A DNA stretch of 12,465 nucleotides, from the NCBI GenBank assembly GCA_027484885.1, contig JAIXSD010000092.1, positions 1-12,465 on the forward strand, given 5' to 3'. Positions within the stretch are counted from its first letter, which is position 1. Each line of letters starts with the position of its first letter. Both the position numbers and the translations under genes were made by a program. This document shows positions 987-12,057 of the stretch, piece after piece. This DNA is from Rubrivivax sp. (GTDB lineage: Bacteria; Pseudomonadota; Gammaproteobacteria; Burkholderiales; Burkholderiaceae_C). The notes beneath the pieces were generated by a model. The model did no database searches. It worked only from the letters and a program-made list of their open reading frames with translations, and was not told the origin of the DNA.

Positions 987-1583
987 ATGACCATCCCGTC
1001 CCGTGACGACGCGACCGACCTCGCACTGCTGCGCCAGGTGGCCGCAGGCGATCGCGCCGCTTTGGCGGTGCTTTACCGTGCCTACCACCCCAGGCTCGGT
1101 CGTTTCCTCTCGCGCCTGACCCGCCGCAGCGAGCTGATCGAAGAGATCATCAACGACAGCTTCTGGATCGTCTGGCAAAAGGCTGAGAGCTTTCGCGGCG
1201 AGTCTCGTGTCTCCACCTGGCTGATGGGCATTGCCTACCGTTGCGGCCTGAAGTCCGTTCGACAGGACGGCGGCATTGACCTCAGCTTGACCGAGCTGGA
1301 CAGCGAGCTCCCTGAGCACCAGCAGGCCATGAGCGACAACCCCAGCGACAGCCGGGAGCTGCGGGACTGGATCGCCAAGGGCATGGATCGGCTCACGCTC
1401 GAACAGCGACTGGTGCTCGAACTGGCCTACGTCGGCGGGCACTCGCTGGAAGAGATCGCCGTGATCATGGAAACCCCTGTCAGCACGGTGAAGGCCCGCA
1501 TGTTCCATGCACGGGTCAAGCTGCGCAACCTTTTGCCCGTGCTGGCTGAACGGCAAAGCCCTGCCGAAAGACTGCAGAAATGA
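987..1583 (+). CDS. ECF-family RNA polymerase sigma factor
   Basis: This is a 198-residue ECF sigma factor, a normal length for the family. Region 2 spans about residues 24-92, including the core-binding and -10-recognition helices (IIEEIINDSFWIVW-like segment; TWLMGIAYR at 77-85). Region 4 spans about 130-185, with a helix-turn-helix (HSLEEIAVIMETPVSTVKAR) that reads the -35 element. A non-conserved acidic linker (95-128) joins them. The stop codon overlaps the anti-sigma start by four bases (ATGA), a sign of translational coupling and a matched pair. It probably transcribes its own operon from 920-953 and the promoters at 56-89 and 3582-3614. No strong ribosome binding site precedes ATG 987. 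The inducing signal is not evident, but the periplasmic protease and membrane-bound anti-sigma point to an envelope signal. Confidence 0.93.
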   Translation: MTIPSRDDATDLALLRQVAAGDRAALAVLYRAYHPRLGRFLSRLTRRSELIEEIINDSFWIVWQKAESFRGESRVSTWLMGIAYRCGLKSVRQDGGIDLSLTELDSELPEHQQAMSDNPSDSRELRDWIAKGMDRLTLEQRLVLELAYVGGHSLEEIAVIMETPVSTVKARMFHARVKLRNLLPVLAERQSPAERLQK

Positions 1584-2257
1584 AGCCCACTCCAAGTGAC
1601 CCTCAAGACCAGGACTTGTCGCATCTGCTGACTCAGCAGACGCTGCCATGGATCGTCAACGGCACGGCCAGCGAGGCCCAGCAGGCCAGCGTCGCCGCGC
1701 ATTTGCTGAACTGCGCGGCCTGCCGCGCCGAGTTTGAGCACCAGACCCAGTTGAAGGAGCTGCTCTCGCAGCCACTCGCGCCGCTGCCCGATCTTGAATC
1801 CGGCTTGGAACGCATGCTCAAGCGACTGGATCAGGCCGAGGAGATTGCGCGCTCTGCACCCGCGCCGACCGACACACGCTCAACTGCGAGCCGGCGCAGC
1901 ACGCGCATCAGCTACGCGCTGGCCGCATGCGTCGCCTTGCAAGCCATCGCCCTCGGGGTCTTGCTGGCGCCACGGCTCGAGCAAGACAGCCCGAGCTTCC
2001 AGACCCTGAGCCAAGCCAAAGACGGCAGTTCCGCGCCGCGCGCTCAGGTCCGCGTTGTACCCGACGAGCGACTCACCATCGCCGAGTGGAACCAGCTGCT
2101 GCACGAGTTCGGATTGCAAGCGGGCAGCGGCCCCAACACCGCCGGCGCCTACGTCCTCGAGCTGACGGATGGGCGGCGCAGCAGCACCGACACCGTCGAG
2201 CAGCTTCGTCGCACCGGAAAGCTGCGTCTGGTCGAAGCCCTGGGCGAAGCGCCTTGA
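1580..2257 (+). CDS. Membrane-anchored zinc-finger anti-sigma factor
   Basis: This 225-residue single-pass protein is the cognate anti-sigma factor. The cytoplasmic part carries the ZAS zinc-binding signature His41-x3-Cys45-x2-Cys48, in a helical region that in this family wraps around the sigma factor. A membrane helix lies at about 111-131, after an Arg/Ser-rich stretch. The periplasmic tail (132-225) has a compact segment at about 156-222 with the pattern of the small alpha/beta propeptide-like domains (I9-type) seen in subtilisins: an acidic helix, a Gly-Pro turn, a GAYVLEL strand, a helix and an LRLVEAL strand. That similarity is my reading and was not tested by profile search. The gene overlaps the sigma gene by four bases at its start and the protease gene by four at its end, so the three are probably translated together. 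Confidence 0.88.
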   Translation: MKPTPSDPQDQDLSHLLTQQTLPWIVNGTASEAQQASVAAHLLNCAACRAEFEHQTQLKELLSQPLAPLPDLESGLERMLKRLDQAEEIARSAPAPTDTRSTASRRSTRISYALAACVALQAIALGVLLAPRLEQDSPSFQTLSQAKDGSSAPRAQVRVVPDERLTIAEWNQLLHEFGLQAGSGPNTAGAYVLELTDGRRSSTDTVEQLRRTGKLRLVEALGEAP

Positions 2258-3555
2258 AAGCCTGGCTTCTCACGCTGGCCTTGAGCGGCCTCCTGAGCGG
2301 CTGCGGCAGCACGCCGCGGGTCGACGCCACGACGGACGCAACTCCATCGGAGCTGGCCAGCAGCGACGAGGCCCGGATGCAAGCCAACAGCGAGCGCTTT
2401 GTCGTGGTGACCGTCGCCAATCCGCTGAAGCCTGTGCCCAACCGCGCCGGAACAAGCCTGCCCGGCTATGGCGGACGAGCCCGCTACACCCAAGGCGATC
2501 AAGCAGCCCAGACACTCCATGCCATTGCCCAGGACTACCGCCTGAAAGAAGCTGCAGCCTGGCCCATCCCTGCCCTCGGTGTGCACTGTGTCGTCTTCGA
2601 GATCCCCCTCGAGGCCGAGCGCGATCAGCTGGTGGCCCAACTCAGCCGTGATGCGCGCGTGCAGCTGGCGCAAGCGCTGCAAGATTTTTCGATGCACGCC
2701 ACTCCAACAGCTGGCGCTGAGGTCTCGTACAACGACCCCTACCTGTCCTTGCAATCCGGCTTTGCGGCCATGAAAACCGCCCAAGCCCACCGCTGGAGTA
2801 CCGGCAAGGGCGCCCACATCGCGGTCATCGACACCGGGGCACAGACAGAGCACCCCGAGCTGCGCGGGCGCATCCACAGCGCCGAAAACCTGGTCGATGC
2901 CGATCGCTTCCGTTTTGAACAGGACCGCCACGGCACCGAAGTGCTGGGCATCATCGCTGCGGCAGGCAACAACCGGCAGGGCATTGTCGGCATCGCACCG
3001 GATGCGCGCATCAGCCTGTACAAGGCCTGCTGGTACCAACCCGCGCCGGCAGCGGCGCTCGCACGCTGCAACACCTTCACCTTGGCCAAGGCGCTCGCGG
3101 CCGTCATGGCCAGCGATGCCCGCATCCTCAATCTGAGCTTGGGCGGCCCCAACGATCCACTCTTGGCAGAACTGCTGGCCAAGCTGCTGAAGCAGGAGCG
3201 CATCGTCGTCGCCGCACAACCGGCTGCCGGCATGCGCAATGGCTTCCCGGCGAATGTGCCAGGCGTCATCACGGTGGGCGTCGCCGACGCGTCGACCGTC
3301 AAAGCCGAGGCCACACTGCAAGCCCCTGGGCGTGATGTGCTGACACTGGCGCCCGGGGGCCGCTACGACTTTGCCAGTGGTTCATCGATGGCCGCCGCGC
3401 ACATCAGCGGCTTGATCGCCCTGCTCCAGGCCCTCGCACCAGGCATGGATCGCCAGGCCATCGAAAAGACCCTGGGCCATGGGGCCACCATGCCCGACGC
3501 AGCGCTCGCACTGGAAGCAACGCTGCCCGGAACCCGGCGCGTGGCAGAACGCTGA
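2254..3555 (+). CDS. S8 (subtilisin-family) serine protease lipoprotein
   Basis: The proposed start is TTG 2254, which overlaps the anti-sigma stop (TTGA) and gives a perfect lipoprotein signal: hydrophobic LTLALSGLL, then lipobox Leu-Ser-Gly-Cys17. Gly at +2 suggests outer membrane sorting. A longer reading to 1927 would only retranslate the anti-sigma gene. Residues about 45-150 form an N-terminal domain that may be a propeptide. The catalytic domain follows, with Asp193 (AVIDTG), His226 (RHGTEVLGI) and Ser378 (ASGSSMAAAHISG). Total length is 433 residues. The segment that normally supplies the oxyanion-hole Asn (usually AAGN) reads VVAAQPAAG at about 318-326, so that Asn is absent or displaced. 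Position in the operon suggests it acts on, or senses, the periplasmic part of the anti-sigma factor; that is inference. Active protease versus sensor-like pseudoenzyme cannot be decided here. Confidence 0.88.
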   Translation: MKAWLLTLALSGLLSGCGSTPRVDATTDATPSELASSDEARMQANSERFVVVTVANPLKPVPNRAGTSLPGYGGRARYTQGDQAAQTLHAIAQDYRLKEAAAWPIPALGVHCVVFEIPLEAERDQLVAQLSRDARVQLAQALQDFSMHATPTAGAEVSYNDPYLSLQSGFAAMKTAQAHRWSTGKGAHIAVIDTGAQTEHPELRGRIHSAENLVDADRFRFEQDRHGTEVLGIIAAAGNNRQGIVGIAPDARISLYKACWYQPAPAAALARCNTFTLAKALAAVMASDARILNLSLGGPNDPLLAELLAKLLKQERIVVAAQPAAGMRNGFPANVPGVITVGVADASTVKAEATLQAPGRDVLTLAPGGRYDFASGSSMAAAHISGLIALLQALAPGMDRQAIEKTLGHGATMPDAALALEATLPGTRRVAER

Positions 3556-5927: not shown

Positions 5928-6590
5928 TCAGGGCGCTTGCACCAAGCGCAGCCAGATCTCGTTGCGCCGCATGAACCACGGTACGAAGGGCGCGTCGTAG
6001 CGGGAGTACACCGGCTCGCCTTCCCAAGCGAGGTTTGCCGACCGCATGGCGGCTTGCAGCTGGGCCAGATGCGCCTGGTAGTTCGACTCTGACCAGAACC
6101 CCGAGTACCGGATCACCGCGAACCGTGCTGGCGGCACCTGCCGGAGTTGAACACGGGCGTCCAGCGGCTCCGGCGCCGTATCCGCCGTGACCCCTTTGGG
6201 CAAGACGAACTGCACCAGGAAGCCACTGGCCGCGGCGACCTGGGTCACCGGCGTGCTCATGTCCAGCTTCACCGGCACAGCGGCCTGCGCCACGGGGGCG
6301 GTCATCGCGAACTTCCGCTCGCCCTTGTTCTTGCCGAAGATATAGCCGGCCAGTATGGGAAAGGCCTGGTTGCCCGCTTCGCCGGCCGGGCCGGGCACCA
6401 CCACCTCGGCCACTGCATAGGCCGCGTACCGCCGCAGCTCGATCCCACCGAGGTCTTGCACAAGCTGGTACTCGGGCTCTTCGATGGCGTGGCTGGGCAT
6501 GGGCAAGACAGTCAAAGCAAGTGATGACAGCAGGGCTGCGACGAAGGCCTTGCGCGAGTGAAACCGGGTCTGAATGTGATGGGCTGGCAT
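5928..6590 (-). CDS. Secreted SOUL-family heme-binding protein
   Basis: This 220-residue protein has a signal peptide (RKAFVAALLSSLALTVLP, likely cut after Ser-His-Ala35), so it acts in the periplasm or on the envelope. The mature chain begins with the SOUL/HBP hallmark of Glu-Pro-x-Tyr followed by GGIELRRYAAYAVAEV. It then shows the F-x-x-L-x-x-Y-I-F-G-x-N (residues about 77-88), KFAMTAPV (93-100) and DMSTPV motifs, and the late beta strands with GFW. Length is normal for the family. SOUL proteins bind heme or tetrapyrroles in several organisms; the heme ligand is not conserved enough to assign here. ATG 6590 is the only reasonable start before the signal peptide, with a weak GGGAAC site upstream. 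Another candidate heme-binding protein is encoded at 9201-9689, which makes a heme theme plausible. Confidence 0.9.
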   Translation of the reverse strand: MPAHHIQTRFHSRKAFVAALLSSLALTVLPMPSHAIEEPEYQLVQDLGGIELRRYAAYAVAEVVVPGPAGEAGNQAFPILAGYIFGKNKGERKFAMTAPVAQAAVPVKLDMSTPVTQVAAASGFLVQFVLPKGVTADTAPEPLDARVQLRQVPPARFAVIRYSGFWSESNYQAHLAQLQAAMRSANLAWEGEPVYSRYDAPFVPWFMRRNEIWLRLVQAP

Positions 6591-6943: not shown

Positions 6944-8407
6944 CTAGAGCCTGTCCTGCAAAGGAAAGCGCAGCACAAAGCGGATGCGACCGGCCGGGCC
7001 GGCATGCACCTGCGCGCTGCCGCCATGCAGGGTCAGGATGCGGCGGACGATGGCAAGGCCCAGCCCACTGCCGCCCGAATCGGCAGTGCGGGAGGGGTCT
7101 GCTCGAAAGAAGCGATCGAACAAGCGCGGCAGCAGCTCGGCGGGCACCGGCTGGCCTTGGTTGCTGACTTCGAGCACCGCAAAACCTGCGGCACGGATTT
7201 GCAGGCTTGCGGTTTCAGCTTCACAAGCCTGGGCCGTCTCCGTGCGCGCCGACAGCTCGATCACCGTGCCGGCGCTGGCATGCTGAACAGCGTTGGCGAT
7301 CAGATTGGCCAAGGCCCGGCGCAGCATGGCCGGTTCGGCCCACAGGGGCGCATCGCCTTGGCAGTGCAGCTGCAAGCCGCGCTCCTCGGCCAGGTCGACG
7401 AAATAGTCGGCCTGCCGGGCCAGCTCGTCGGCGGCAGACAGCGGCTGGCGCTCGATGGCAGCAGCCGTCGCCTCATGCTCGCTGCGCGCCAGAAACAGCA
7501 GGCTGTCGACCATGCGATTCAGGCGCTCCAGCTCCTGCAGCTGCCCCTCCAGCAATGCGGCGTACTCGGCGGGCGGGCGCGGCCGGCTGAGCATGACCTG
7601 GCTCTGGCCCGTCAGCACGGCCAGGGGTGAACGCAGCTCATGGGCCAGGTCGGCCGCGAACTGGTTGAGCTGGGCATAGCCTTGTTCCAGCCGACTCAAC
7701 ATGGTGTTGATGGCCTCCACCAGGGGGCGCAGTTCCTCGGGCATGTCCACCGCATGCAAACGCAGGTCGAGGCTGTGCGGGCCGATGGCAGCGGTCTGGG
7801 CACGCAGGCGGCGCAGCGGCGCCAGGCCCCGCCAGATCAGCCACAGCACCAAGGCTGCGGACAAGCCTCCGGCCGCCAGGCTGGTGGCGGCGATGCGCAG
7901 CCGGTAGTCGGCCAGCAGCTCGCTGCGCTCCGGGTAGAGGCGGGCCAAGCGGATCTCCACCGGATCCGGGCCCAGCTGCGCCCAGGCGTTGAGCAAGGCC
8001 ACCGGAACCCCGTCTTCGCGAAGCGCATGGCGGATGTCTTGCAGCCCAGCCTGCTGGTTCAGCGGCACTGGCCGGGCTTGCGGCAATGGCAGGCCCGGCG
8101 GGTTGATGCGCAGCAGCAGCGCCGCACCCTGCGCCGGCGCGGCATGAATTTCGATCAGCGCATTGCTCTCCCCGCTCATGGTGTCGCGCAAGTAATCGGC
8201 CTGCTCGCGCAGCAGCTCGGGCGTGCCGCTGTGAGCCAGCAGCTGCCGCAGCTGGCGCAGCTTGCCCAGCAACTGCACATCGTCGCGGTGCAGCAGCTGT
8301 TGCTCGAAGGAGCGGTAAAGATACGCACCCAGCAGCGCACTGGCCACCGCGGCCACCAGCGCACCCGACCAGCCCAGGCGCCAGCCCAAAGACCGCGGCG
8401 GCCTCAT
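6944..8407 (-). CDS. Sensor histidine kinase, CusS/HprS-like
   Basis: ATG 8407 overlaps the response-regulator stop (ATGA) and gives 487 residues. Two membrane helices (about 12-30 and 172-192) bracket a periplasmic sensor domain of about 140 residues. HAMP follows (about 193-245). The H-box is [12 protein letters not shown] with phospho-acceptor His256, then N-box [14 protein letters not shown] with Asn372, and a final GSGLGLAIV glycine box. In the first ATP-lid motif, SNQGQPVP replaces the usual Asp-x-Gly, as in the NxG variant of CusS-type metal and redox kinases. The periplasmic domain has no Cys, one Met and several His, so thiol-based sensing is unlikely. It is co-transcribed with the regulator and probably phosphorylates it. 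Possible inputs are metal, oxidant, or a signal relayed by the secreted GlcG/HbpS-like protein encoded divergently. Confidence 0.95.
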
Positions 8408-9084
8408 TCGCGCAGCTCGCAAACATAACCCATGCCGCGCACGGCATGGATCAAGCGGCCGGGCACTGGGTCGTTGATGCGCAGGCGCAAACGGCGGATG
8501 GCGACATCGACCACATTGGTGTCGCTGTCAAAGTTCATGTCCCAGACATGGGAGGCAATTTCGCTGCGAGACAGCACCTCGCCCTGGCGGCGCATCAGCA
8601 GCTGCAGCAAATTGAACTCGCGGGCGCTGAGGCTCAGGCGTTGCCCAGCCCGGGTGACGGTGCGCGCCGGGGCGTTCAGGCGCAGATCGGCCACGGTCAA
8701 GACATCCTCCTCGCGCTGCGGACCGCGGCGCAACAAGGTGCGTATGCGGGCCAGCAACTCTGCAAAAGCAAAGGGTTTGACCAGGTAATCGTCGGCACCC
8801 AGCTCCAGGCCCTGCACACGGTCGGCCAAGGCATCGCGCGCGCTCAGGAACAGCACCGGCACATGCCGCCCCACGGCGGTCTGGCGCAGGCGCTGCAGCA
8901 CCGTCCAGCCATCCAGGCCGGGCAGCATGACATCCAGCACCACCAGGTCGTAGGCATTCTCCAGCGCCAGATGCAGGCCGGTGTGGCCGTCTCTGGCCAC
9001 ATCCACCACAAAGCCGGCCTCGCCCAGGCCTTGCTTCAGGTAGTCCCCCGCCCGTGTTTCATCGTCCACCACCAGGATGCGCAC
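8404..9084 (-). CDS. OmpR-family response regulator, CusR/HprR-like
   Basis: GTG 9084 is taken as start because GGAG lies about seven bases upstream and the product then opens with the usual RILVVDDE strand; TTG 9102 would add six residues. The 226-residue protein has a receiver domain with acidic pocket Asp7-Asp8, phospho-acceptor Asp51 (VLDVMLPG), Ser81 and Lys103 (LVKPF). A winged-helix domain follows, with the recognition region [26 protein letters not shown]. That last motif ([16 protein letters not shown]) is typical of the CusR/CopR/HprR branch. It overlaps the kinase gene by four bases. A palindrome fitting this branch's DNA site is centred 64 bases upstream of the GTG, so it probably regulates both itself and the divergent 9201-10182 operon. 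Confidence 0.95.
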
Positions 9085-9135
9085 GCCGACCTCCGTGTCC
9101 AACAGACCGCCAGCATGCCTGAAAGCCCGCCAGCC

Positions 9136-9159
9136 TTCGATGGCAAGAATGTCATCGAA
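9136..9159. promoter_or_regulatory. Palindromic operator of CusR/HprR type
   Basis: TTCGATGgCA, four bases, TGtCATCGAA: a 24-base inverted repeat with one mismatched pair. Read on the minus strand its core is TGACA-N4-TGCCA, nearly the TGACA-N4-TGTCA site recognised by E. coli CusR and HprR. It lies in the 116-base divergent gap between the response regulator and the GlcG/HbpS-like gene, about 41 bases before the latter's ATG. A TACAGT at 9189-9194 could be the rightward -10. The spacing would suit an activator. Confidence 0.7.
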
Positions 9160-9200
9160 CGGTCAGCGTCCTGGCAGCGCCGGCTTTCTACAGTGCGGGC

Positions 9201-9689
9201 ATGCCCTTCTCAAACACCCGTCACCCCCTCCCCTGGCTGATCTTGAGCACCCTCCTGACCGGCGCCGTGCGGGCCGATCCTGCAGCGCTAACCTTGGCAC
9301 ACAGCGAGCAACTGGCCAGCGCAGCGCGCCAGGCCTGCCAGGTCTTCGGCCGGGACATCGCCGTGGCTATCGTCGATTTCAGCGGCCAGACCCTGTTGAT
9401 GTCGCGCAGCCCAACGGTCGGCCCCCACAACCTGGAGGCCGCGCGGCGCAAGGCCTACACCGCCCTCTCCACCCGCCAGCCCACGCTGGCGCTGGGCCGC
9501 CAGGCACGCAGCCAGCCCGACACCGCAGCCCTGCAATACCTGCCTGAGCTACTGCTGCTCGGCGGCGGCGCACCGCTGAAGCGCGGAGACGCGGTGCTGG
9601 GTGCCATTGGCGTGGCCGGCGGTGGCGGGCCGGAGAACGACGACCGCTGTGCCCAGGCCGCAGCCACCCGCTTCACAACCTCCAGCTGA
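9201..9689 (+). CDS. Secreted GlcG/HbpS-family (DUF336) protein
   Basis: This 162-residue protein has a signal peptide (LPWLILSTLLTGAV, cut after Arg-Ala25) and a mature domain of the GlcG/HbpS family. Features seen are a Cys46-containing first helix, DIAVAIVDFSGQTLLMSR, the RRKAYTAL helix, and the Gly-rich hallmark GGGAPLKRGDAVLGAIGVAGGG followed by the ENDDRCAQA helix with Cys150. Family members include Streptomyces HbpS, an extracellular heme-binding protein that modulates the SenS/SenR two-component system under redox stress; others have unknown function. Here it is divergent from a two-component pair and 25 bases before the hydroxyisourate hydrolase gene, so the two are one operon. No ribosome binding site is visible before ATG 9201, and if TACAGT at 9189 is the -10 the mRNA could be leaderless. 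Heme binding is inferred, not shown. Confidence 0.88.
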   Translation: MPFSNTRHPLPWLILSTLLTGAVRADPAALTLAHSEQLASAARQACQVFGRDIAVAIVDFSGQTLLMSRSPTVGPHNLEAARRKAYTALSTRQPTLALGRQARSQPDTAALQYLPELLLLGGGAPLKRGDAVLGAIGVAGGGGPENDDRCAQAAATRFTTSS

Positions 9690-9714
9690 TTGCTGAACTC
9701 AACCGGAGCCTCTC

Positions 9715-10182
9715 ATGAGCCACACCCCCTCTCACCACTCGCAGCGCTCGCGCTTCGTCATCAGCGCCAGTGTCTGGCTCGCCAGCCTGGCCGCACTCGG
9801 TCTGCCCGCGCAGGCCGCCCGGGCGGCTGATCACAACCCACTCAGCGTCCATGTGCTGAACCTGCAAACCGGCCAGCCCAGCCCTGGCATCCGTGTGGAC
9901 CTGGAGCGCCGCATCGACGCCACCCACTGGCAGCAGCTGGGCAGCGGCACCACCGACGAACAAGGGCGGGTGCGTGCCCTGGTACCCACGGCCGAGCTGC
10001 CGAAGTGGAGCGCCGGCGAGTACCGCGTGGTCTTTCGCACCGGTGAGTTTTACGCCCGGCAGCAGCAGGCGAACTTCTTCCCCGAGATCCCTGTGGTGAT
10101 CCGGGTCGAGAGCGCCCAGCAGCACTACCACGTGCCGCTGCTGCTCAGCCCCTACGGCTTCTCCACCTACCGGGGCAACTGA
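9715..10182 (+). CDS. hiuH: Periplasmic 5-hydroxyisourate hydrolase (transthyretin-like)
   Basis: HIU hydrolase converts 5-hydroxyisourate, the product of urate oxidation, to OHCU. The 155-residue precursor has an export signal (about 1-38, ending Ala-Arg-Ala) and a transthyretin-fold domain with the catalytic set in place: His46 in LSVHVLN, Arg85 in DEQGRVRAL, and His137/His139 in HYHVPLLLSPYGFSTYRG. The C-terminus reads Tyr-Arg-Gly-Asn, whereas the family signature is Tyr-Arg-Gly-Ser. GGAG seven bases upstream supports ATG 9715. It is the second gene of the operon beginning at 9201. E. coli hiuH is likewise periplasmic and lies beside and under the control of the redox-responsive HprRS system, which matches the regulator here. 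No uricase or other urate gene is in the window. Confidence 0.94.
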   Translation: MSHTPSHHSQRSRFVISASVWLASLAALGLPAQAARAADHNPLSVHVLNLQTGQPSPGIRVDLERRIDATHWQQLGSGTTDEQGRVRALVPTAELPKWSAGEYRVVFRTGEFYARQQQANFFPEIPVVIRVESAQQHYHVPLLLSPYGFSTYRGN

Positions 10183-10308: not shown

Positions 10309-12057
10309 TCAATGCAAGCGGTAGCGGTGCGCGTCTTCCAGGCTGCCCCGCACATTCAGGCCCTGGGCTTTCCAGCGCTGGATGTGGGGCGCCAGGCGCT
10401 TCACAAACACAGCCGGGCTGGAATTGGCGCTCTGGCGCCAAGCCACTTCGGCCACCGCCGCCAGGCGCGGGTAGAGCATGAACTGCAGATAGCTTTCGCT
10501 GCGCACGTTCTCGGTCCAAAGCGGCGCCTCAATGCCCAGCACCCGCTGGCCCTCCGCCTCGCTCAAACCCTCAGGCATGGGCTCCCAGGCCACGATCTTC
10601 TCGACCGAAACCGGGCCGCCGGTGTTGCCCTCCCAGGGCGCACCGGGCTCACCCAGGCCGGCGGCATAGTCCAGGTACATGCGGTCGGACGGCGACAAGA
10701 TCAGCGACTGCCCCTGCCGCAGCGCCTGACGCGCGGCCTCGGGCTTGTCCATGCGCCACCACTGCACGACCAGCGCAGGGTCATCGAGCCCGGCGGCGAT
10801 CACCTCGTCCCAGCCGATGGGAATGCGGCCATGCTTCTGGATCAGCTGGACCACACGGCGCGCAAACTCAGCCTCCACCGCCTTGAGCTGCGGCGCTTGA
10901 TCGGCCGGCGTGAGCGCGCGCGCCAGGGCCATGACCTCGGGCATGTCCTTCCAGCGGGTGTTGTCCACCCAGACCTCATCGCCACCGAAATGCAAGTAGC
11001 GGCCCGGGAACAGGCGCAGCAGATCGCCCAGCAGGGTGTCGATGAAGCGATAGATCTCGGGCTTGGCGGGGTTGAAAGTGACCCGGCCGTCAAAGAACTC
11101 GGGGTAGGCGCGCGCCGCAGCACCGCTGTGGCCCGGCATGTCGATCTCGGGGATGACTTCGATGTAGCGCTCGGCGGCATAACGCACGATCTCCCGCACA
11201 TCGGCCTCGCTGAAGAACTGGGCCGGGCCTTTGTTGGGCTGCGAATGGCTGCCACGCCCGCCGACCTGGCTCAGCCGCGGCAGGCTACGCAGCTGCACCC
11301 GCCAGCCCTGGTCATCGCTGAGATGCAGATGCAGGCGGTTGAGCTTGTAGGCCGCCATCTGGTCGATGACCCGCTTGACGCGGCCGGCATCGTGAAAATG
11401 CCGGGCCACATCGAGCATCAAGCCGCGCCAGGCGAAGCGCGGCGCGTCCTCGATCTCGGCTGCCGGCAGGCGATAGCGGGCCTCACCCTGGAGGCGGACG
11501 CCCTGCGGCAGCAGCTGGCGCAAGCTCTGGCCGGCGTAGAAAGCGCCGCTGGCCTCGGCCGCTTCGATGAGGATGGCCTCAGCCGCGATGCGCAGACGGT
11601 AGGCGCCGGGCACGGCGGGCAGATCCTTTGCCAGCACCAGGCGAATCTGCCGGGCCGCGGCGCCGCCCGCCGGCGCCTCACCAGCACGCGCCGGGCGCAA
11701 GCCCAGCTCGCGCGCCAAGGCCTGCGCCGCCACCTGCATGGCCGGGTCGGCCCAGACCTGCACCTGCCGATTGAGCTCAAACGGCGCCTGCTCCTCCAGG
11801 GCTTGCAGCCGCTGCGGCTGCGGCAGCAAGGCGGCCAGGGGGATGGGCGGGGCTGCGGCTGCGGCTGCGGCTGCGGCTGCGGCTGCGGCTGCGGCTGCGG
11901 CTGCGGCTGCGGCTTCGGCTGCGGCTGCGGATGCGGATGCGGCTGCGGATGCGGATAAGGGTGCGGCGGCGAGCAGGCCGCTGCTCAAGCTCAAAGCACC
12001 AAGCAGCAGCGCCTGGCGGGCGGCCTTTGCAAGCATCCCTGACGATTCAGAAACCAT
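10309..12057 (-). CDS. GH20 beta-N-acetylhexosaminidase, exported
   Basis: This 582-residue enzyme removes terminal N-acetylglucosamine or N-acetylgalactosamine from glycans or chitin fragments. A signal sequence (about 8-36) is followed by a low-complexity Ser/Ala region with a run of 21 alanines (49-69) encoded by a hexanucleotide repeat. Next comes the small GH20b alpha/beta domain (about 72-195), then the TIM barrel (from about 200: FAWRGLMLDVARHF, RLHLHLSDDQGWR, IPEIDMPGHSGA). The catalytic pair Asp360-Glu361 sits in HFGGDEVW, and the substrate-binding Trp motifs QWWR and APLWTEN are present. All expected catalytic residues are seen, so the enzyme should be active, in the periplasm or outside. 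ATG 12057 overlaps the esterase stop by 11 bases; ATG 12036 is an alternative with a poorly placed site. It forms an operon with the esterase. It converges on hiuH, and I see no clear terminator in the 126-base gap. Confidence 0.95.
   Translation of the reverse strand: MVSESSGMLAKAARQALLLGALSLSSGLLAAAPLSASAAASASAAAAEAAAAAAAAAAAAAAAAAAAAAPPIPLAALLPQPQRLQALEEQAPFELNRQVQVWADPAMQVAAQALARELGLRPARAGEAPAGGAAARQIRLVLAKDLPAVPGAYRLRIAAEAILIEAAEASGAFYAGQSLRQLLPQGVRLQGEARYRLPAAEIEDAPRFAWRGLMLDVARHFHDAGRVKRVIDQMAAYKLNRLHLHLSDDQGWRVQLRSLPRLSQVGGRGSHSQPNKGPAQFFSEADVREIVRYAAERYIEVIPEIDMPGHSGAAARAYPEFFDGRVTFNPAKPEIYRFIDTLLGDLLRLFPGRYLHFGGDEVWVDNTRWKDMPEVMALARALTPADQAPQLKAVEAEFARRVVQLIQKHGRIPIGWDEVIAAGLDDPALVVQWWRMDKPEAARQALRQGQSLILSPSDRMYLDYAAGLGEPGAPWEGNTGGPVSVEKIVAWEPMPEGLSEAEGQRVLGIEAPLWTENVRSESYLQFMLYPRLAAVAEVAWRQSANSSPAVFVKRLAPHIQRWKAQGLNVRGSLEDAHRYRLH
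11851..11952. repeat. Hexanucleotide (GGCTGC)n microsatellite
   Basis: Ten perfect GGCTGC units (11851-11910) are followed by seven variant units (GGCTTC, GGCTGC twice, GGATGC twice and others, ending GGATAA). On the minus strand the unit reads GCAGCC, two alanine codons, so it lies in frame inside the GH20 gene. Gains or losses of whole units would change only linker length. The variant units on the 5' side of the gene look like an older, decayed part of the array. Confidence 0.95.

Follow-up and report, generated by a model that had tools for sequence, protein, structure and literature searches.

What a HbpS-like protein is doing in a redox or metal-sensing locus is the question raised by a 12,465-nucleotide stretch of DNA from Rubrivivax sp. 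(contig JAIXSD010000092.1, assembly GCA_027484885.1; hereafter the window). There, genes for a sensor kinase and its response regulator diverge from genes for the HbpS-like protein and for a periplasmic 5-hydroxyisourate hydrolase (HIUase). The first-pass annotation had proposed that the HbpS-like protein feeds the kinase. Comparison across genomes leads to a different answer, as the conserved core of the locus is the gene pair of HbpS-like protein and periplasmic HIUase, not the kinase. The reading judged the most probable, with a fair margin of doubt, is that a circuit of the HprRS/CusRS family has as its output, here and in related beta- and gammaproteobacterial loci, an operon of exported HbpS-like protein and periplasmic HIUase that would be induced by oxidants or metal and whose products would be partners in oxidised-urate chemistry.

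All four genes were present as previously annotated, and the products pass their family models: the kinase TIGR01386 (NCBIfam; 388.7 bits, cut-off 292.55), the regulator TIGR01387 (322.6 bits, cut-off 279.2), the HbpS-like protein PF03928 (103.6 bits, cut-off 25) and the HIUase TIGR02962 (127.6, cut-off 87.45). Two starts were revised against the raw open reading frames; most likely, from the sequence around them, the regulator begins at a GTG preceded by GGAGG and the kinase at an ATG overlapping the stop of the regulator. Both the HbpS-like protein and the HIUase are predicted to be exported, judging from N-termini read by eye. The features of the locus are the following.

6944..8407, minus strand: sensor histidine kinase of HprS/CusS type (HAMP, HisKA and HATPase domains), ATG at 8407, listed reading frame start 8422.
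8404..9084, minus strand: OmpR-type response regulator of HprR/CusR type, GTG at 9084 with GGAGG, listed reading frame start 9102.
9139..9156, no strand assigned: inverted repeat of HprR/CusR type, GATGGCA-AGAA-TGTCATC, which probably serves as the regulator site in both directions.
9162..9179, plus strand: direct repeat GTCAGCG-N4-GGCAGCG between the box and the -10-like element, from the alignment of gaps, putatively functional.
9189..9194, plus strand: putative -10-like element TACAGT (within TTTCTACAGTG).
9201..9689, plus strand: HbpS-like (DUF336/PF03928) protein, with a likely N-terminal export signal by inspection.
9715..10182, plus strand: HIUase, transthyretin-like, probably periplasmic from its N-terminus and similarity to E. 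coli HiuH.

In 349 genomes from the family of the window, themselves a draw from a larger group, searches that used the HbpS-like protein and the HIUase as queries found close matches side by side in three other genomes (60–72% identity for the HbpS-like protein, 66–73% for the HIUase), each with the full four-gene layout (regulators 78–91%, kinases 52–70% identical). From a draw of 250 genomes of the order, 29 loci were fetched for the best non-self matches in the HbpS family, and no HIUase gene lay beside any of them. The recurrence to be looked for in Burkholderiales was borne out for layout and box, but the four-gene arrangement, although real, is sparse in the order.

A scan of 84,980 named species genomes used two peptide patterns from four paired HbpS-like proteins (VGPHNLEA and ARRKA[YF]TAL) and found 88 relatives; the 80 best were retained as loci. 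A HIUase gene follows the HbpS-like gene on the same strand in 65 of these 80, mostly within about 100 bp by simple reading frame calls. Twenty-six are Pseudomonadota, including Roseateles, Paucibacter, Hydrogenophaga, Massilia, Duganella and Pseudomonas, in all six of which the divergent four-gene layout recurs, and 39 are Bacteroidota, including Flavobacterium, Pedobacter, Hymenobacter, Pontibacter, Rufibacter, Chryseobacterium, Kaistella and Arcticibacter. The 15 loci without the pair comprise 13 more distant HbpS proteins, whose best-segment identity does not exceed 41%, one locus whose contig ends early (L108) and one discussed below (L121). As a control, 55 other HbpS-family loci of the window's order were inspected, and none had a HIUase (tblastn at E ≤ 1e-4, flanks up to 1.5 kb). 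Because the scan patterns select one HbpS subfamily, the test from the HIUase side matters: in a draw of 398 Pseudomonadota genomes, a HbpS-like gene stands directly upstream of 9 of the 14 closest non-self HIUases (E ≤ 2e-35), and over all 29 non-self loci fetched it lies upstream in 9 and downstream in one (L205). Some genomes were seen twice (L061/L090/L101; L062/L091/L094; L063/L092/L117; L110/L236), and the frames of L107 and L136, which look interrupted in simple calls, were kept as is. On a contig filed under a Methylotenera assembly (L098), the whole unit is present in a Roseateles-like copy, whose regulator sits next to that of R. puraquae in the tree with a branch length of zero; this copy reflects either transfer or mis-binning.

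The regulator next to the pair is exchanged between the phyla. Of the 26 Pseudomonadota pair loci, 17 have a divergent kinase and regulator and nine have none within the 5-kb flanks. Pseudomonas oryzihabitans and P. luteola have none beside the pair, and a 60–63% identical regulator with its own kinase is encoded elsewhere in the genome. In P. luteola, this matching regulator/kinase pair adjoins a cytochrome b561-like gene (by reading; L263 2983–3606 in minus-strand coordinates), and candidate box-like sequences precede the regulator in L263–L265. A gene for a cyclic nucleotide-binding (Crp/Fnr-type) protein lies upstream of the pair in 34 of the 39 Bacteroidota loci. No regulator above 35% identity was found near the pair in 38 of the 39, the exception being L172 (45%, about 3 kb off); L109, L111 and L112 gave generic matches of 20–24% only, more than 3.5 kb distant. 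An apparently exported pair that is kept under different regulators in distant bacteria suggests a joint role in stress defence and not the feeding of a kinase.

Between the divergent units, the palindrome previously pointed out was recovered as TGACATTCTTGCCA at 9141–9154 (minus strand), one base short of a perfect TGACA-N4-TGTCA, with the extended form GATGGCAAGAATGTCATC at 9139–9156. Over the whole window, the match count is not unusual (equalled in 66 of 200 shuffles), but a 9/10 match within the 116-bp gap has a p of about 0.0015. The palindrome is kept in relatives: the consensus GATGRCA-N4-TGTCATC persists, with a changed spacer, in the four divergent gaps first compared. Such a box precedes the pair in all 26 Pseudomonadota pair loci, in 24 with a null fraction of at most 0.01 in a Markov shuffle and in two near chance (L148, 0.06; L169, 0.12). 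The mean null fraction was 0.008 in these 26 loci and a null-like 0.68 in 35 Bacteroidota loci, a set that omitted L106, L115, L122 and L124, where the match was not at the usual place. The score was set from the pair loci, which are not independent, and the E. coli box together, so that this test is partly circular; for a motif partly derived from the same data, however, the E. coli box provides a reference from outside. That box, CATTACAAAATTGTAATG, is published as shared by CusR and HprR (PMC9302797). The box of Pseudomonas sp. T1-3-2 (L163), CATTACAAAATTGTAATC, is identical to it in 17 of 18 bases and that of L147 in 16 of 18 by hand count, while two Massilia have GATGACG-AAAC-TGTCATC and the P. 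oryzihabitans group has TGACAAAATTGTCA. The direct repeat is also kept in the four aligned divergent gaps (its second arm differs by one base in L092). The -10-like element, which reads TAGAGT in L090, ends only 6 bp before the ATG of the HbpS-like gene, and a leaderless mRNA is therefore possible. When a regulon was sought in four genomes with a degenerate box pattern, 25, 31, 32 and 28 sites came up, most of which were uninformative, and as the reversed-pattern control (0–5 sites) differs in codon content, no regulon is claimed.

The regulator is 54.7% identical to E. coli CusR and 49.5% to HprR, and it missed the equivalog cut-offs of both HprR (PRK11517, 271.6 versus 353 bits) and CusR (282.1 versus 420 bits). 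Two arbitrarily rooted regulator trees, built from matches of at least 180 amino acids (L188 and L189 dropped in the first), left orthology to HprR or CusR unsettled. In the kinase, Cys occurs at 348 and 394 only (numbering of the 486-residue alignment row, one less than from the ATG at 8407), which confirms that the periplasmic part has none. In a review, two periplasmic methionines, unnumbered there, are named as the sensing residues of E. coli HprS (PMC10151825). The window kinase, in comparison, has a single periplasmic Met, and 14 of 14 kinases (the window and 13 loci) carry Met at alignment position 75 or 76, opposite HprS Met72/73; L097, L130, L139 and L147 were not aligned, as picking of reading frames found no kinase frame there. 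Since HprS is reported to sense through periplasmic Met and a Met is kept here, the missing Cys does not speak for a separate sensor. The Met/His-rich copper loop of CusS is absent from the window sensor in an alignment with CusS. The kinase model (pTM 0.44) gave usable fold matches from its cytoplasmic part only, the best in the PDB, after an integrative model (9a5d), being the cytoplasmic cores of E. coli HprS (9epn) and CusS (7zp0), and a PDB sequence search with just the sensor segment found no match. The term HprRS-like is supported as a likeness in working by the divergence from hiuH, the recurring layout and box and the TIGR01386/TIGR01387 assignments, but not as strict membership, given the missed HprR cut-off and an operon without msrPQ. 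To judge from these sequence features, a circuit of HprRS/CusRS type very probably controls the divergent hiuH operon.

The AlphaFold2 model of the HbpS-like protein (pLDDT 89, pTM 0.80) had 20 Foldseek matches in the PDB at E ≤ 0.001, all of them DUF336 proteins or, more weakly, yeast Ybr137w. Among the DUF336 structures were HbpS (3fpv/3fpw), OrfY (2a2l), NahX (9jth; nothing on its function was found in the literature), EfgA (6bws) and the C-terminal domain of PduO (5cx7). An alignment of 39 paired proteins (the window protein and those of 38 of the 65 pair loci) shows invariant D59, G74, H76, N77, A80–A85 (AARRKA), T87, S90, T91, E116 and D147, ARRKA and its neighbours being partly imposed by the search pattern ARRKA[YF]TAL. 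At the position of the HbpS iron site EXXE (PMC3754957), all 39 have E/D-x-x-R: position 79 is E in 36 rows and D in 3, and position 82 is always R.

The HIUase shares 48.8% identity with E. coli HiuH, whose structures 2igl and 2g2n are its closest, and missed the PRK15036 cut-off (141.2 versus 217). Its C-terminus reads YRGN (10168–10179), with N replacing the S of YRGS. This ending was found in 58 of 80 paired versus 6 of 57 unpaired HIUases (137 compared, with a few duplicate genomes), most unpaired ones having Ser as the last residue, a split that is partly phylogenetic. The next purine enzyme, 2-oxo-4-hydroxy-4-carboxy-5-ureidoimidazoline (OHCU) decarboxylase, did not turn up in 12 of the 24 hosts examined, among them all nine Bacteroidota, and the paired HIUase therefore seems independent of the usual purine pathway. 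In Salmonella, the remainder of the pathway is missing (PMC3528726). In Riemerella, HIUase is reported to be raised when iron is restricted (PMC5609570), a finding on which nothing here is based. The window genome has a second HIUase together with an OHCU decarboxylase on another contig; the assembly is 76% complete (4.06 Mb, 779 contigs).

A working scheme can be proposed from these data. The kinase would detect either an oxidant of the hypochlorous acid (HOCl) or peroxide class, through periplasmic Met chemistry as in HprS, or a metal, and the regulator would bind GATGRCA-N4-TGTCATC, which lies some 53 bp ahead of the likely start, and activate the pair. In E. coli, the hiuH-msrPQ operon is induced by copper via CusSR and by HOCl via HprSR, copper raising the hiuH mRNA about 190-fold (PMC9302797). 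Within the periplasm, oxidation of urate or a similar purine might yield 5-hydroxyisourate, which the HIUase would hydrolyse. The periplasmic HIUase of Salmonella has been proposed to remove externally formed 5-hydroxyisourate that would otherwise damage lipids (PMC3528726), and by analogy the same role is proposed here, with the HbpS-like protein as a partner that may bind or convert substrate or product or may shield the HIUase from heme or metal.

Several observations weigh against this scheme. In L121, the HbpS-like gene is accompanied by a Crp gene, and no HIUase lies in the 2.4 kb downstream. Five of the 14 closest Pseudomonadota HIUases have no HbpS-like gene, and one of these (L197) is accompanied by HprR and HprS of the E. 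coli type. Among 296 Bacteroidota genomes drawn, 15 had a HIUase at E ≤ 1e-15 (the query included), and only 2 of the 14 non-self HIUases are beside a HbpS-like gene (2 of the 4 closest, none of the next 10); one has a Crp gene without it and 11 have neither. In the window's own family, 26 of 29 non-self HIUase loci, about 35–40% identical to the window HIUase, are without a HbpS-like neighbour. With so many HIUases lacking it, the pairing is a property of one HIUase branch. The figure of 65 of 80 describes a subfamily selected with patterns from four paired proteins, and the loci are not independent, several being relatives in the P. oryzihabitans group and in Flavobacterium. Normal HIUase activity is not to be assumed with YRGN in place of YRGS. 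The window box is closer to the CusR version (13 of 18) than to the HprR version (11 of 18), so that the signal could be copper or silver.

Two alternatives stand next in line, both with a low probability. According to the first, the HbpS-like subfamily (GxHN...AARRKA) would itself be an enzyme acting beside the HIUase in exported urate oxidation, either making 5-hydroxyisourate from urate with heme and peroxide or removing OHCU. If true, the bacteria would possess a periplasmic urate module made of two proteins and induced by oxidants, in the second variant with the HbpS-like protein in place of the missing OHCU decarboxylase. The other alternative, about equally unlikely, is a copper or silver circuit related to CusRS, in which the pair would serve metal tolerance and the HbpS-like protein would bind metal or heme and protect a copper-sensitive HIUase. 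The closer identity of the regulator to CusR than to HprR and the form of the box are consistent with it, as are the copper induction of E. coli hiuH (PMC9302797) and the strong inhibition of the Salmonella HIUase by copper (PMC3528726). However, the sensor lacks the Met/His-rich CusS loop, no efflux-pump gene was seen by reading among the reading frames of the window, and the CusR equivalog cut-off was missed.

The idea weighed first, a secreted HbpS-like accessory sensor binding the periplasmic domain of the kinase as HbpS does with SenS, now appears improbable. The protein shares domain family and fold with Streptomyces HbpS, and a divergent kinase adjoins the pair in the 17 Pseudomonadota loci given above. 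The idea was demoted by the Bacteroidota and P. oryzihabitans loci, because there the pair travels without a neighbouring kinase. In addition, the iron motif EXXE is not kept, and reading of the N-terminal 25 residues showed no twin-arginine pair in the window protein, whereas Streptomyces HbpS is exported via the twin-arginine translocation (Tat) route (PMC3754957, PMC8153426). The E. coli hprSR-hiuH locus, moreover, has no HbpS-like gene, the DUF336 protein GlcG being encoded elsewhere in E. coli (PMC8153426). That the HbpS-like protein is a generic small-molecule binder occupying a promoter-proximal slot, without joint function with the HIUase, is very improbable: DUF336 proteins do occur in several catabolic gene clusters (PMC8153426) and HIUases often stand without one, but the pair recurs in two phyla under different regulators (65 of 80 versus 0 of 55 loci) and in 9 of 14 cases in the HIUase-side test.

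As for the remainder of the window, a gene for a SOUL heme-binding protein lies directly downstream of the kinase gene (5928–6590, minus strand); as a member of the unit it was rejected, since it stands beside the unit in 1 of 80 scan loci only (L093, the nearest relative; flanks up to 5 kb). At 987–3555 (plus strand), an ECF (extracytoplasmic function) sigma factor, a weak zf-HC2/anti-sigma match below the Pfam cut-off and a subtilisin-type-like protease frame (by reading) stand in a row that resembles a separate sigma/anti-sigma unit. A beta-hexosaminidase-like frame at 10309–12057 (minus strand), recognised by reading only, has a long alanine run near its N-terminus.

The finding worth keeping is the HbpS-like/HIUase operon in two phyla. 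A partner gene kept while the regulator is exchanged gives a concrete handle on the role of periplasmic HIUase, and the pair offers this DUF336 subfamily a candidate co-worker. Literature searches on a link between HbpS and HIUase, and on HIUase with copper or regulators, found no description of the pair, most subscription papers being outside their scope.

One of the closest known systems is the E. coli hprSR/hiuH-msrPQ locus (PMC9302797). The gene layout given in the first-pass annotation was confirmed, with hprSR divergent from hiuH-msrP-msrQ and a published site common to CusR. In both loci, the genes of a kinase and its regulator diverge from an operon with a periplasmic HIUase, and an inverted-repeat box separates the two units. 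Here, in contrast, a HbpS-like gene precedes the HIUase, and the regulator is only about half identical to HprR. In all 15 Pseudomonadota examined, the MsrP homologue is encoded away from the unit (in the window genome on another contig), and none of 11 regions upstream of msrP in 10 genomes has the box above chance (smallest null fraction 0.2), which speaks against MsrPQ as a regulon member. E. coli and these bacteria therefore seem to share the hiuH target and to differ in its companions. E. coli CusRS resembles the locus in its TIGR01386/TIGR01387 families, box form and regulator identity, and differs in the copper loop of the sensor and in the pump genes, none of which were seen by reading beside the unit here.

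Streptomyces HbpS-SenS-SenR has in common with the locus the HbpS-like fold and a protein with a probable export signal. It differs in having EXXE (PMC3754957) where E/D-x-x-R stands here; in the present loci, the kinase is divergent and not always beside the pair, and the partner gene encodes a HIUase. Linked to redox stress, the Streptomyces system turns down urate-degradation genes when oxidative stress sets in (PMC4991794); the parallel is suggestive but does not count as evidence. OrfY, NahX, EfgA and PduO share the fold, but EfgA and PduO are cytoplasmic or belong to a microcompartment (PMC8153426, PMC4923194), whereas N-terminal export signals are predicted here by inspection. Salmonella YedX, a periplasmic transthyretin-like protein, is likewise a periplasmic HIUase. 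According to the 2012 paper on it, the genes of periplasmic members are in no operon and lack a consensus context (PMC3528726); for the branch described here, the recurring two-gene operon disagrees with that claim.

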